In this document: in pieces, positions 3,539 to 33,015 of the stretch | Layout of the letters: the number at the start of each line of letters is the position of its first letter | Numbering within the stretch: position 1 is the first letter of the stretch | Virus record (IMG/VR): IMGVR_UViG_3300032271_001830 | Coordinates: 1-34,374 of that record | DNA length: 34,374 nucleotides | DNA from: a virus | Direction: 5' to 3' (one strand) | The notes under the pieces: model-generated | Told to the model about the DNA's origin: nothing | The model's database searches: none | Seen by the model: the letters and a program-made list of their open reading frames with translations, nothing else | Position numbers and translations under genes: made by a program

Positions 3539-5644
3539 TTGTCATTCTATCTACCTCCGTGGCAAAACAACATAGAACCCTCGCAAGGAAGCGTAAGACA
3601 GTGGCTTGACAATTTATATAGTAAGTTCCAGCCCATCGAACAAAGTCGCTGGAACCAAAGTAATATAGATACTCTTTTTTATGCAGGCGCACAAAATTTC
3701 GTAAACAGATATTTCAACTTCACACCTAATAACAGCTATCAACAGTTTTACTTTAACCTCATACAACAACCTGTAAACCTTGTAACTGGCTATCAAAGGC
3801 AGCATAGAAAAGGGATTATGTATGAGGCAACTGAATCTGCTGATCCTCAAACTACAGATCAATACACAAAATTAATGACTCATGTAAACAATGCTAATGG
3901 CATACATGAACAATTTTCTAAAGCTTGTGAACTTGCTACTGTATCAGGAATGGTTTTACTTCAACCTTATTTAGATTATACAAATGAAGATCCTGCTCAA
4001 GGGGAGCTAAAGCTAAAGGTCTGGGAATACAACGCCTTTTTAGTTGATCCCTATTTTAGAAACCCTGACATGTCTGATGCTCAATTTGTATGGTGTCAAG
4101 AATACATATCTAAAAAAGAAGCTGAAGCCCGCTTTCCTGATAAACTGCAAATGATTGCCCCAATGTCAGGAACTCCTCAAAGATATGGTTCGTTCTACTT
4201 TTTACCTGAAAACTATAACATGGCAAGAAACGATTTAATGGTTCTTTCTTATGTTTGGTATAAATGGAAAAAGAAGAAAAAACGTCTCTACAGTAAGACC
4301 CGTAATCAGTTTTTCGACATGGCTCAAGATGCTGATCTAGAAGCAATTTTATATAACATTCCTGATTTAGAGACAGTCGAAGTAGAAGTCAATACCTGGA
4401 AACTGGCAACGATCCTTAATGATCAATTGATGTTCCAAGGGGAAAATCCACTAGGTTTTGATGGATGCCCATTCATTCCTGTATTTTGGAATTATGACCC
4501 ACACATCAACTACTACGATTTGCGCGTACGATCACTTGTTCGTTGCATGAGAGATCCACAATTCTTATTTAACTATAAAGTTATCCAAAACAACGACATC
4601 GCCCAAGCAACTATTAATGCTGGATGGAAACGTAAGATTGGGGCTGTTGCAAATGAAGACAATCTAAAGAAATCAGGACAAGGCTGGGATATTATCATCA
4701 ATGATGGTTACGAGCTTTCTGATATAGAAAAGATTATTCCTTCAGCTGTTCCAGAGTCAGACTTAGCCTTAGCTCAACAGATGGCAGATTTAACCAATCA
4801 AGTATCTGGTATTAATATGGAAAATTGGAGCGCTCAAGAAGATAAAGGGGCTTCAAGTTTGACGGTATTACTAAAGCAAGCTGCTAATTTAATGGTCTTC
4901 CAAAAGTACTTTGATCAGTGGGATTATTCTTTAAGACTGCTTGGTGAAAGATTGCTTCAAATAGTTCTAAATAACTGGAATGCTGAAAAGGTTAAGTTAT
5001 ATATTGGCGAAGAACCGACGCCTTATTTCTATTCGAAAATCTTTGTTAAATTTAAAACTTTGGTTGAAGAATCAGATTTAACACCTACACAACAAAACCT
5101 ACAAGCTAAGCAGATGATGGATATGAATGCTGCTTTTGGTAGAGAAGTTTTCCCACCATCCATGATTATTCCTAAACTAAATATCACTGGTAAAGGGGAA
5201 ATTATTCCTTACCTACAACAACAAGAGCAGCAATCTCAAGCCCTTCAGCAAGAAGGACAGAATATTCAACATACTCTTCAAGAAGCGCAGCTTAAAGATC
5301 TTTATGCTAAAACAGCTGCAAGTATGGCGATGGCTAGAGAAAGACATGGCCGAAGTGAAGCCAATATTGGACTGTTTGAAGAAAGATTATCTGAGATCAC
5401 AAGAAATCGTGCTCTTGCTACAAAAGATAAAATGGAGGCCCTTGAAAAACTCATCGATGTTATCTCAAAGTATGGTGAAATTGAAACAATGCTTAAAATG
5501 GGTCAAATCCAAAGTTTTGACTACACCCAAGAAGCCAAAGAAGACCAAGAAAAAGTAGACGCTAGAAGAACTTCATTATCCAATCAGTTCATGGAATCTA
5601 TCATGGGTAGTGCAATGGATCAACAAATGCAAGGAATGTTATGA
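3539..5644 (+). CDS. Portal protein, P22-like (TTG start)
   Basis: This 701-aa protein has the length of the P22 portal family (about 725 aa in P22) and its typical early segment (YFNLIQQPVNLVTGYQRQHR), followed by a long alpha-helical C-terminus rich in Gln (the portal barrel, about 550-640). The portal forms the dodecameric ring through which DNA is packaged and ejected. The start is TTG 3539: an in-frame TGA lies about 24 bp upstream, no ATG intervenes, and GGAG at 3529-3532 stands 6 bases ahead of TTG. The stop overlaps the next start as ATGA. Confidence 0.88.
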   Translation: MSFYLPPWQNNIEPSQGSVRQWLDNLYSKFQPIEQSRWNQSNIDTLFYAGAQNFVNRYFNFTPNNSYQQFYFNLIQQPVNLVTGYQRQHRKGIMYEATESADPQTTDQYTKLMTHVNNANGIHEQFSKACELATVSGMVLLQPYLDYTNEDPAQGELKLKVWEYNAFLVDPYFRNPDMSDAQFVWCQEYISKKEAEARFPDKLQMIAPMSGTPQRYGSFYFLPENYNMARNDLMVLSYVWYKWKKKKKRLYSKTRNQFFDMAQDADLEAILYNIPDLETVEVEVNTWKLATILNDQLMFQGENPLGFDGCPFIPVFWNYDPHINYYDLRVRSLVRCMRDPQFLFNYKVIQNNDIAQATINAGWKRKIGAVANEDNLKKSGQGWDIIINDGYELSDIEKIIPSAVPESDLALAQQMADLTNQVSGINMENWSAQEDKGASSLTVLLKQAANLMVFQKYFDQWDYSLRLLGERLLQIVLNNWNAEKVKLYIGEEPTPYFYSKIFVKFKTLVEESDLTPTQQNLQAKQMMDMNAAFGREVFPPSMIIPKLNITGKGEIIPYLQQQEQQSQALQQEGQNIQHTLQEAQLKDLYAKTAASMAMARERHGRSEANIGLFEERLSEITRNRALATKDKMEALEKLIDVISKYGEIETMLKMGQIQSFDYTQEAKEDQEKVDARRTSLSNQFMESIMGSAMDQQMQGML

Positions 5645-5924: not shown

Positions 5925-6146
5925 ATGTCAGGTGGACAAAGAATTGATGACCATAAATTTTGGGCTGGTTCAAGAAGCAAAGAATCTGTGTTACCACTAG
6001 GTTCTAAAATGAAACAAGAATCTTCTGTAGGTGGCGCTGGTTCTGTTGCAATGTATGAAGATACTGATAGAGCTATCAAGTCTTTACAAGAAAAAGGCGA
6101 GAAAAAAGTCAAATCTCATGCTTTAAAAGACGGCTATAGAAACTAA
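5925..6146 (+). CDS. Small hypothetical protein (73 aa)
   Basis: ATG at 5925 is preceded by GGGAG (5915-5919). The protein is hydrophilic, with a Gly/Ser-rich middle and a basic C-terminal part (KSLQEKGEKKVKSHALK). It has its own sigma70-like promoter upstream. I do not recognise the family. Small basic proteins of this kind often accompany capsid genes in related phages, but no role can be assigned. The 66 bp after it contain the short palindromes AAAGATCTTT and GGGCCC and a 6-bp CCGGTC/GGCCGG pairing, and no gene. Confidence 0.6.
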   Translation: MSGGQRIDDHKFWAGSRSKESVLPLGSKMKQESSVGGAGSVAMYEDTDRAIKSLQEKGEKKVKSHALKDGYRN

Positions 6147-6212
6147 ATTTTTCCGGTCAGGTTTTAGGATTAAAGATCTTTATTTGGCCGGGCCCTTTAA
6201 CAAAGAGTTATT

Positions 6213-6431
6213 ATGTTTAAAAATCCCATAGCACCTAGAGAAAAAAAAGAAGGCAAATGCCCTTGGAATTTTGAAGCTCCTCAATATGATCAACGTTCAA
6301 GCAATTTTGTAAGTGCTGGTAGTCATTATGGTGTAGGTTTCAATCAACCTGTAGGAACTTCTAAAGTTACTAAAGGTTATGCGGTTCCTATGGGAAAAGT
6401 TTCTACTATGGCTGTAGATGAAAAAGGGTAA
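6213..6431 (+). CDS. Small hypothetical protein (72 aa)
   Basis: It starts at ATG 6213, just after the short palindromes. The sequence is Gly/Pro-rich and polar, with no hydrophobic segment (MFKNPIAPREKKEGKCPW at the start). The end overlaps the following 56-aa gene by 14 bp. I do not recognise it. Confidence 0.55.
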   Translation: MFKNPIAPREKKEGKCPWNFEAPQYDQRSSNFVSAGSHYGVGFNQPVGTSKVTKGYAVPMGKVSTMAVDEKG

Positions 6432-6588
6432 AGTTTCTGACGAAGCCCATGTTTCAAGAAGCGGTAAGCCCATGGGCGATTATTATGGCACAGGCATAAA
6501 AGCTAAAGTTGCTATTTTAAGAGATATGGCAGGAATAAATCCCGCTTCTAAGAAACAACTAGGAACTCCTCCTAAATCTTTAGCTTAA
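6418..6588 (+). CDS. Small basic protein (56 aa)
   Basis: ATG at 6418 lies inside the end of the preceding gene and the frame stays open to TAA 6586-6588. The product begins MKKGKVSDEAHVSRSGKPMG and is basic with a helical KAKVAILRDMAG segment. Its stop overlaps by 3 bp the end of the convergent minus-strand gene. Family unknown. Confidence 0.5.
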   Translation: MKKGKVSDEAHVSRSGKPMGDYYGTGIKAKVAILRDMAGINPASKKQLGTPPKSLA

Positions 6589-6707
6589 AAATCTTTTACA
6601 AGTATTAAAACAGCTGTAATCACCATAAGATTTATAAAAGAAATAAGAACTATTACTTTTAAAACTAACTTCATTTCTGCATCTTCATCATTTAAAGGGT
6701 GCTTCAT
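6585..6707 (-). CDS. Single-span membrane microprotein (40 aa)
   Basis: ATG at 6707 (minus) overlaps the stop of the 157-aa gene as ATGA. A 16-residue charged N-terminus is followed by a hydrophobic stretch (VLKVIVLISFINLMVITAVLI). It is predicted to be a one-pass membrane peptide. Like the microproteins at 1841-2076 and 20019-20156, it is the downstream member of an operator-controlled minus-strand operon. Confidence 0.5.
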   Translation of the reverse strand: MKHPLNDEDAEMKLVLKVIVLISFINLMVITAVLILVKDF

Positions 6708-7177
6708 GTAACAATTTTCCAATTAGGAGCATTAGCAGCGCGACTGATTTCTTCATAAATAGCATCTATTTCAAAGTCTTCTAAATCGTCGTCTTCTTTA
6801 GCTTCTAGTTTAGATTTATTGTTAATGAAATTATGAATGCTTTCACAAATGGTTTCATTAGCTGTTACTAATCCTTTTTGATATTGCGTCCACAACTCGG
6901 GAGCCGGAATCATCCATATAACTTTAATTATATCACTTCCAGGATAAGCTTTAAAAAGCATGGAGTTAGATTGAGCTTTAGGTTTTGTTAGCCTTGGCTG
7001 CCATAAAAGTCTTTTTGTAACCCCATCGTCATCGGTTCTTGCATGAGCAAATATATAAAATGGACAATCACCGAATGGTCTTTTGTTTATTAAGTCCTGG
7101 CAGCATTCACTAATATCAAAGTTTTGTTTTGTAAAGTGTTTATATCTATCATGAGCATCTAGTACATCAACTTTCAT
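6704..7177 (-). CDS. Hypothetical protein (157 aa) in the head-gene region
   Basis: The protein has mixed composition with aromatic-rich segments (CPFYIFAHARTDDDG, VIWMIPAPELW) and an acidic stretch near the C-terminus (KEDDDLEDFEIDAIYEE). I do not recognise the family. It is transcribed against the surrounding structural genes from its own promoter, TTGCGG-17-TAAAAT, which has operator site 3 in the spacer. That suggests expression at a different time from the virion genes. Confidence 0.75.
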   Translation of the reverse strand: MKVDVLDAHDRYKHFTKQNFDISECCQDLINKRPFGDCPFYIFAHARTDDDGVTKRLLWQPRLTKPKAQSNSMLFKAYPGSDIIKVIWMIPAPELWTQYQKGLVTANETICESIHNFINNKSKLEAKEDDDLEDFEIDAIYEEISRAANAPNWKIVT

Positions 7178-32068: not shown

Positions 32069-32099
32069 AAAAAAAAAGGGGCACATATTACGTGCACCC
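32069..32099 (-). terminator. Minus-strand rho-independent terminator
   Basis: On the minus strand GGG-(A bulge)-GCAC pairs with GTGC-CCC across a 7-base loop, followed by nine T (32077-32069). The strength and orientation show that a minus-strand transcript ends here, although no conventional gene lies just upstream. Confidence 0.75.
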
Positions 32100-32208
32100 T
32101 AAGAAATTAGGTATCAATACCCTTGCAGGGGTAAGGATAAAAACTAATAGTATCGAGAGTACTACAAGCTTCATTAGCAAAACCTAAAAAGGAGGTAAAT
32201 GCTAACTT
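32069..32208 (-). ncRNA. Candidate structured antisense RNA (about 140 nt)
   Basis: Between the promoter at 32215-32243 and the terminator at 32069-32099 the minus strand contains four further stem-loops: TTAGCA/TGCTAA with inner ACCT/AGGT (32174-32205), TAGTA/TACTA (32148-32164), TATC-aa-TACCC/GGGTA-ag-GATA (32112-32139) and CCTAA/TTAGG (32098-32111). The first hairpin loop reads CCUUUUU and the arm contains ACCUCC, the exact complement of the plus-strand Shine-Dalgarno sequence. It runs antisense to the leader of the replication-type gene. A 28-codon hydrophobic frame (32174-32088) is possible, but its stop lies in the terminator loop. Confidence 0.5.
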
Positions 32209-32318
32209 TTCCGTATTATAACACAATTATAACACATTCGGAAAAAGCTTCTAGTAAAATGAGAACTATTAGGTTAACTAAAAACTTAAATAGGTCATTT
32301 TATGTCTATAAATTTTGA
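32199..32318 (+). CDS. Possible leader peptide (39 aa) of the replication gene
   Basis: AAGGAGGT (32189-32196) is a perfect Shine-Dalgarno sequence three bases before ATG 32199, within the hairpin 32174-32205. The frame encodes 39 residues (starting MLTFPYYNTIITHSEKASSK) and ends at TGA 32316-32318, overlapping the replication gene start by 17 bp. The composition is unremarkable, so it is probably a regulatory leader: translation of it may control the coupled gene. It could also be chance. Confidence 0.35.
   Translation: MLTFPYYNTIITHSEKASSKMRTIRLTKNLNRSFYVYKF
32215..32243 (-). promoter_or_regulatory. Minus-strand promoter with tandem extended -10 elements
   Basis: An 11-bp unit, ATTATAACACA on the plus strand, is repeated exactly twice in tandem (32215-32225 and 32226-32236). 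On the minus strand each gives TGTGTTATAAT, i.e. an extended -10 (TGnTATAAT). TTCCGA at 32243-32238 is a weak -35. The block is flanked by the inverted repeat TTTTCCG/CGGAAAA (32207-32213 and 32239-32245), a possible operator. Confidence 0.5.
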
Positions 32319-33015
32319 AGAAACTATTCAACGATGTTCTCATGATAAAGAAAATCCTTATGTCATGATTTCTAGAGAATTGATTAAAAATAAAAACATA
32401 TCTCTTCAATGCAGGATGTTTATTATTTACCTCCTCTCATTTGATAAATCATGGATTTTTTCTATCCCTTTTATCATGAAAGAGCAGGACCTAACACGTT
32501 ACGCTATTGATCAATTAATTCATGAAGCAAGAACTGCTGGCTATCTAAAAAGGATAGATTTCACAAAAAACAATCTCAAATGTTACCGCTATCTGATTTC
32601 TGAAACCCCTAAATTTCTTACTGTAAATCCTAGCATTTCAGAAATTCAAATAATTTTACCGTATCGTGATTCTCCGAATACGGAGAAACACAACACTAAT
32701 AAAGAACAATCTTCTTCTTACGAAGAAGAAAGAAATAAACAACAACAACCTCCTACCTCCTTTCCAGAAAAAAATGCAAAGGCTCCTGTTCCCAAAGTTG
32801 TTGTTGCTTTAAGCCATGTTGAAAAGAACCGTAAAACGGTTATCGAAGTCAAGCAAGGAGCGCCTAATGCGACCAAACACATGTACATCTACAACAAAAC
32901 ACAAACGCTGTGTGATTACAAAAGGCCAGAAATAGATATACCCCTTTCCATGCCACCTGAAGACTTTGAGCGCAAGATCGTAGAACTATACGACTTGGTG
33001 GTGACCGATGAATAA
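32302..33015 (+). CDS. Replication-initiator-like protein with winged helix (237 aa)
   Basis: Residues about 20-100 show a winged-helix domain seen in phage and plasmid replication proteins: PYVMISRELIKNKNISLQCRM (domain start), then FIIYLLSFDKSWIFSIPFIMKE, then RYAIDQLIHEARTAGYLKR. The C-terminal part (about 120-190) is a low-complexity Glu/Lys/Gln/Pro linker, then a short terminal domain. It is overlapped by a leader ORF and lies downstream of the antisense RNA. The likely role is origin binding or helicase loading. It overlaps the next gene by 8 bp. Confidence 0.6.
   Translation: MSINFEETIQRCSHDKENPYVMISRELIKNKNISLQCRMFIIYLLSFDKSWIFSIPFIMKEQDLTRYAIDQLIHEARTAGYLKRIDFTKNNLKCYRYLISETPKFLTVNPSISEIQIILPYRDSPNTEKHNTNKEQSSSYEEERNKQQQPPTSFPEKNAKAPVPKVVVALSHVEKNRKTVIEVKQGAPNATKHMYIYNKTQTLCDYKRPEIDIPLSMPPEDFERKIVELYDLVVTDE

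Follow-up and report, generated by a model that had tools for sequence, protein, structure and literature searches.

Control of a replication (rep) gene by an antisense RNA is a textbook feature of plasmids. Here we ask whether a tailed phage carries the same kind of control, starting from IMGVR_UViG_3300032271_001830, a 34,374-bp IMG/VR virus record that we analyzed over its full length (hereafter, the window). The record encodes a P22-like portal, a terminase, a major head protein and ERF/YqaJ recombination genes, and it had no DNA match among annotated phages.

The gene at issue, rep (32302-33015, plus strand), encodes a 237-aa protein with a winged-helix N-terminal domain, which PHROG matches, fold matches and ~37 related loci support as a DnaD/RctB-like replication protein. 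Its AlphaFold model contains a confident core (residues ~21-106, pLDDT ~90), and the best PDB fold matches of the model, weak to modest at E ~0.01, were the RctB N-domain and primosomal DnaB. Among PHROG families, the protein matched a DnaD-like helicase loader (2.5e-5) as well as replication initiation families. It matched no Pfam family, its profile found no match by sequence among solved structures, and its matches in plasmids were distant only; the families it does match are DnaD-like or RctB-like, and it is not an IncFII RepA. The product is a plausible replication initiator, and the AlphaFold core, the weak RctB and DnaB folds and the DnaD-like PHROG match uphold the winged-helix replication protein that had been proposed from the letters alone (hereafter, the sequence-only reading). 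No iterons were found within or 3' of rep in the window. The stretch encoding SSSYEE in the rep linker (~32711-32731) is a palindrome, CTTCTTACGAAGAAG, which is identical in the rep linkers of three diverged relatives (the window, L002 at 4364 and L106 at 2380) and is possibly an origin or a Rep-binding site.

A predicted minus-strand RNA gene upstream of rep

The minus strand upstream of rep carries a putative antisense (counter-transcribed) RNA of ~138 nt (32071-32208), predicted from its fold, promoter and terminator and from an arrangement kept in relatives, with its start inferred from the nearer of two -10 boxes. These tandem extended -10 boxes (32220-32215 and 32231-32226, minus strand) each consist of TATAAT preceded by TGT, and a weak minus-strand -35 element (TTCCGA, 32238-32243) lies 17 nt away, in the position occupied by TTGCAA or TTGCGC in relatives. 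The best promoter score in the window leader was 11.1 (p = 0.04 versus shuffles). Transcription would end at an intrinsic terminator on the same strand (GGGTGCACGTAATATGTGCCCC followed by a T run, 32099-32071), for which the relatives' terminators provide counterparts; terminator-like sites in the region numbered 4, compared with 1.1 expected. The predicted fold of a 142-nt version of the RNA comprises the terminator and three hairpins (-40.4 kcal/mol, z = -4.2); none of 200 shuffles equaled it, and the trimmed transcript reached z = -5.0.

In sequence, the antisense RNA is complementary over its full length to the 5' portion of the rep leader. Hairpin 1 (32173-32206, strand not assigned) would present the loop CCUUUUU on the antisense side and AAAAAGG on the sense side, a kissing-loop complementarity that trivially holds for any antisense hairpin. 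On the plus strand, the same hairpin contains a Shine-Dalgarno (SD) site, AGGAGG (32190-32195), followed by a 39-codon leader ORF (32199-32318, plus strand) that overlaps the start of rep by 17 nt. The physical observations of the sequence-only reading are thus all confirmed: the doubled TGT-TATAAT box, the stem-loops with their strong terminator, and the SD held in a hairpin ahead of a frame that runs into rep.

That reading had also seen no credible gene within the minus-strand RNA. An ORF does exist there: MKLVVLSILLVFILTPARVLIPNFLGCT (32174-32088, minus strand), a hydrophobic peptide of 28 aa that resembles type I toxin peptides, ends within the terminator loop, and would make the transcript a small toxin-like mRNA. 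However, its SD is weak, most other antisense RNAs of the family lack any ORF and the peptide recurs in none of them; we rejected the type I toxin interpretation, which is exceedingly unlikely given that the peptide is not conserved. Rfam searches returned no match for the window at the gathering threshold and only tRNAs for 17 relatives; weak hits to suhB and AniS (E 0.13-1.9) were dismissed as chance.

Conservation of the arrangement among related loci

Relatives were collected by scanning IMG/VR with the rep protein and with profiles, yielding ~37 loci plus later additions. A minus-strand terminator was found in ~30 of 35 leaders, 64-275 nt upstream of rep, and most leaders also contained a minus-strand promoter between the terminator and rep (TTGCAA or TTGCGC, 16-17 nt, then TATAAT or GATAAT). 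Promoters were enriched on the minus strand of the leaders (Fisher 2e-6, compared with 0.66 for the plus strand over that interval), and the antisense RNAs of the family fold better than shuffles (1e-14). In the window, the plus-strand promoter for rep scores poorly (p = 0.49). In seven relatives (L003, L014, L022, L027, L029, L033 and L092), a TTGACA-type plus-strand promoter is located immediately upstream of the terminator, so that antisense coverage there would include the extreme 5' end of the rep mRNA.

The leaders are not near copies and share almost no 11-mers, which indicates that the arrangement, rather than the sequence, is conserved. Neither the scans nor the DNA search of annotated phages found close relatives of the window leader, and extra scans for close relatives within sub-clusters gained few. 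Because the leaders lack close relatives and share hardly any words, we compared them with shuffles and with other genes instead of using covariance modelling. Overall, these patterns lead us to predict that a counter-transcribed RNA, starting at a promoter of its own and ending at its own terminator, lies over the rep leader.

Alternatively, the minus-strand RNA might belong to a leftward gene as its attenuated leader and overlap the rep leader only incidentally; a leftward ORF of the window (32040-31861) starts just past the terminator. Yet the RNA gene is kept across the family while just 8 of 25 loci have a leftward-pointing ORF as their upstream neighbor, a count from a simple heuristic that missed the window's own leftward ORF, and we consider this explanation very improbable.

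Individual loci vary in their surroundings. A small extra gene, winged-helix-like by eye, lies between the antisense RNA and rep in L016 (~3747-3985) and L023 (~3679-3950), where the antisense lies over the leader of the extra gene instead. In L118, five tRNA genes (1122-1655) form a cluster immediately ahead of the antisense RNA and rep. The rep genes of L006 and L125 look short or broken, with a family match that ends early and is followed by stop codons, and their leaders are still readable.

A putative switch in the rep leader

What the antisense RNA would do is suggested by the leader downstream of it. We divided each leader into the part covered by antisense (U) and the uncovered part (D), and denoted as A a decoy within U that resembles the rep ribosome-binding site (RBS) and as B an anti-RBS element within D. 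Our main reading, to which we give a probability of about 70% on the basis of sequence analysis, is that the phage carries a counter-transcript that regulates how much replication initiator is expressed, refolding the leader so that the rep RBS is hidden. While antisense RNA is scarce, A would pair with B, leaving the RBS open for synthesis of Rep; as phage copies rise, antisense RNA would rise with them and pair with A; and with A occupied, B would be freed to fold onto the rep RBS and start codon, lowering Rep synthesis. Such a circuit would probably serve to limit the copy number of a plasmid-like prophage or early replication.

Most leader statistics were computed on the 24-25 loci with an identifiable minus-strand promoter. 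U:D complementarity reached p < 0.05 in 18 of 24 loci (Fisher 1e-19 versus 0.02 for the control), and pairing of B with the RBS (1e-10) and of A with B (2e-10) was likewise in excess, compared with 0.16 for the control pairing of U with the RBS; these combined p-values pool distantly related loci and their samples are not fully independent. An unselected comparison that needs no promoter call, between 36 rep genes and 175 other genes of the same loci, gave p = 6e-6. Removing U raised the predicted cost of opening the RBS by an average of 4.1 kcal/mol, whereas the rise with shuffled U was 0.96 kcal/mol (p = 6e-6) and the change in 156 other genes was -0.33 kcal/mol (p = 1.7e-11). The three elements also appear by eye to change in concert (A/B/RBS of TCCTAT/ATAGGA/TCCTAT in L022 and TTCTAT/ATAGAA/ATCTAT in L092). 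About a third of relatives, for example L002, L031, L121, L122 and L134, have no clear B:RBS pairing.

Three relatives (L132, L134 and L137) were found after the hypothesis was formed, and two of them, L132 and L137, fit the switch. All predicted parts are present in L132 (A, ATCAACAGGAGAGC; B, GCTCTCCTGTTGAT; RBS, ATCAATAGGAGAAATATG), with p = 0.001 for both A:B and B:RBS and opening values of 2.5 / 11.3 / 13.1. L137 has B:RBS pairing at p = 0.001 and opening values of 5.6 / 10.5 / 15.0, but its A:B pairing misses (p = 0.18), and L134 fits poorly.

In the window, segment A (32141-32171, plus strand) is covered by the antisense RNA and forms an inverted repeat with segment B (32245-32275, plus strand), which lies outside it and is predicted to pair with the rep RBS and start codon (32283-32304, plus strand). 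The A:B pairing was borderline (p = 0.076), and the B:RBS pairing reached -12.8 kcal/mol (p = 0.016), including a perfect 8-mer that joins TAAAATGA (32255-32262) in B to TCATTTTA (32295-32302) at the RBS. The predicted cost of opening the RBS was 4.0 for the intact leader, rising to 7.4 when U was shuffled and to 6.6 when U was removed, and 1 of 25 shuffles of U was as open as the real leader; the long target:leader duplex had p = 0.20. Two alternative leader folds, in which antisense pairing would free the RBS-hiding segment, are thus predicted across the family, with moderate strength for the window alone. Together with the conserved promoter and terminator, the conserved leader switch strongly supports the earlier proposal of an antisense RNA over the rep leader and a plasmid-like control.

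Antisense binding could alternatively terminate the rep mRNA early, as in attenuation of the pT181/pIP501 type. Plus-strand terminator-like hairpins do occur just before rep in L030, L113 and L118, and by eye in L116; in all four, a U-run follows the A:B stem and transcription attenuation may take place. Each of these hairpins, however, is formed by the A:B stem, and antisense pairing would work against that stem rather than favor it; moreover, the window leader has no plus-strand terminator, making this account quite improbable.

The sequence-only reading had favored the logic of IncFII plasmids, in which the antisense prevents translation of a leader peptide and rep, being coupled to it, is switched off in turn, a logic that needs no refolding around the RBS. 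Much in the window fits: the leader SD is strong, its ORF overlaps rep, and both the SD and the ATG of that ORF are covered by the antisense RNA. The SD of rep itself is AGG only (score 2.5), among the weakest of the family and shared only with L098, whereas the rep SD in every other leader matches at 4-6 bases; the weak site in the window favors coupling to the leader ORF. Across the family, however, comparable overlapping leader ORFs are rare, occurring only in L028, L121 and L125, and the RBS switch is common and scores in the window too. The IncFII logic therefore holds as a description of the window and not as the family mechanism, and leader-peptide control by itself is an unlikely explanation. 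Under the preferred reading of leader refolding, coverage of the SD and start of the 39-codon ORF would likely add a second layer in the window, where translation of the leader ORF probably feeds the poorly initiated rep.

Known antisense systems and plasmid-like prophages

In R1/IncFII plasmids, rep initiates poorly and is overlapped by a leader ORF whose RBS lies under an antisense RNA. The window alone is similar to the CopA-CopT-tap-repA system (Blomberg 1992, as cited in PMC10724649), in that its leader ORF overlaps rep and has its RBS covered by antisense, but the phage family has no conserved leader ORF and has an additional RBS-decoy switch. What the family shares appears to be a leader that antisense pairing refolds so as to sequester the rep RBS, a logic known from repABC and pSK41 plasmids. 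The repABC counter-transcript (RepE/incA) refolds the leader downstream of its pairing site; in its absence, both the SD and the start codon are accessible (PMC6090056). Antisense-driven refolding would thus control access to the rep SD and start in both systems; the repABC RNA differs in being ~50 nt long, in its location within a plasmid operon, where it separates repB from repC, in having an unrelated initiator and in also involving termination upstream of the repC RBS. In pSK41, representing staphylococcal RepA_N plasmids, RNAI is an ~83-nt antisense to the rep leader that induces an RBS-sequestering stem-loop, and Rep is a winged-HTH protein with a DnaD-like structure (PMC5703833). RBS sequestration by an antisense-induced stem-loop is the shared feature, the pSK41 and phage leaders being likened by description, and pSK41 differs in being a plasmid, not a phage.

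Among temperate tailed phages, lambda encodes OOP, a short RNA with its own terminator that lies on the opposite strand immediately upstream of the replication gene and is antisense to the end of cII (PMC3349717). The placement of the window RNA is the same and the record encodes a P22-like portal, so an OOP-like RNA could act here in another way, as a primer, by transcriptional interference or as antisense to an upstream gene. However, the window has no cII-like sense gene beneath the RNA, the upstream sense-strand gene ending ~200 nt before it, and has a rep-leader switch instead. Since an OOP-like role leaves unexplained why that switch matches the antisense boundary, we regard it as rather improbable.

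Phages that replicate as plasmids are known from mycobacteriophages, in which extrachromosomal prophages use RepA or RNA-based origins together with parABS and replicate at a controlled copy number (PMC7157519). The likeness lies in plasmid replication by phages with ParA; the mycobacteriophage RNA systems differ in being described as initiator RNAs, not antisense control of rep mRNA (PMC7157519). In our set, ParA occurs in 5 of 37 related records and a tyrosine recombinase in 7 of 37, the recombinases being Xer-like, suggesting that several relatives are plasmid-prophages. The L022 record (L145) encodes a 223-aa ParA with a KGGSGKTT Walker motif and a 298-aa Xer-like tyrosine recombinase (6119-6790 and 742-1638), both signs of a plasmid-prophage. 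The window record, which is possibly incomplete, had no match to ParA, integrase or HTH_3.

A search of the mostly open-access literature found no antisense control of rep in tailed phages with a protein initiator; here, plasmid-type copy-number control is predicted to be built into a tailed-phage family. At roughly even odds, a large and diverse metagenomic family of P22-like phages would replicate as plasmid-like prophages under an antisense RNA whose target mimics an RBS, with decoy, anti-RBS and RBS co-evolving while other leader sequence turns over freely, so that incompatibility specificity would differ from phage to phage, and with leader-peptide coupling added in the window. The three-segment switch yields clear, easily tested predictions. 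If it is correct, plasmid-type copy control, possibly with incompatibility, would extend to dozens of phages across many metagenomes, and this would bear on the origin of phage-plasmids and on superinfection between related prophages.
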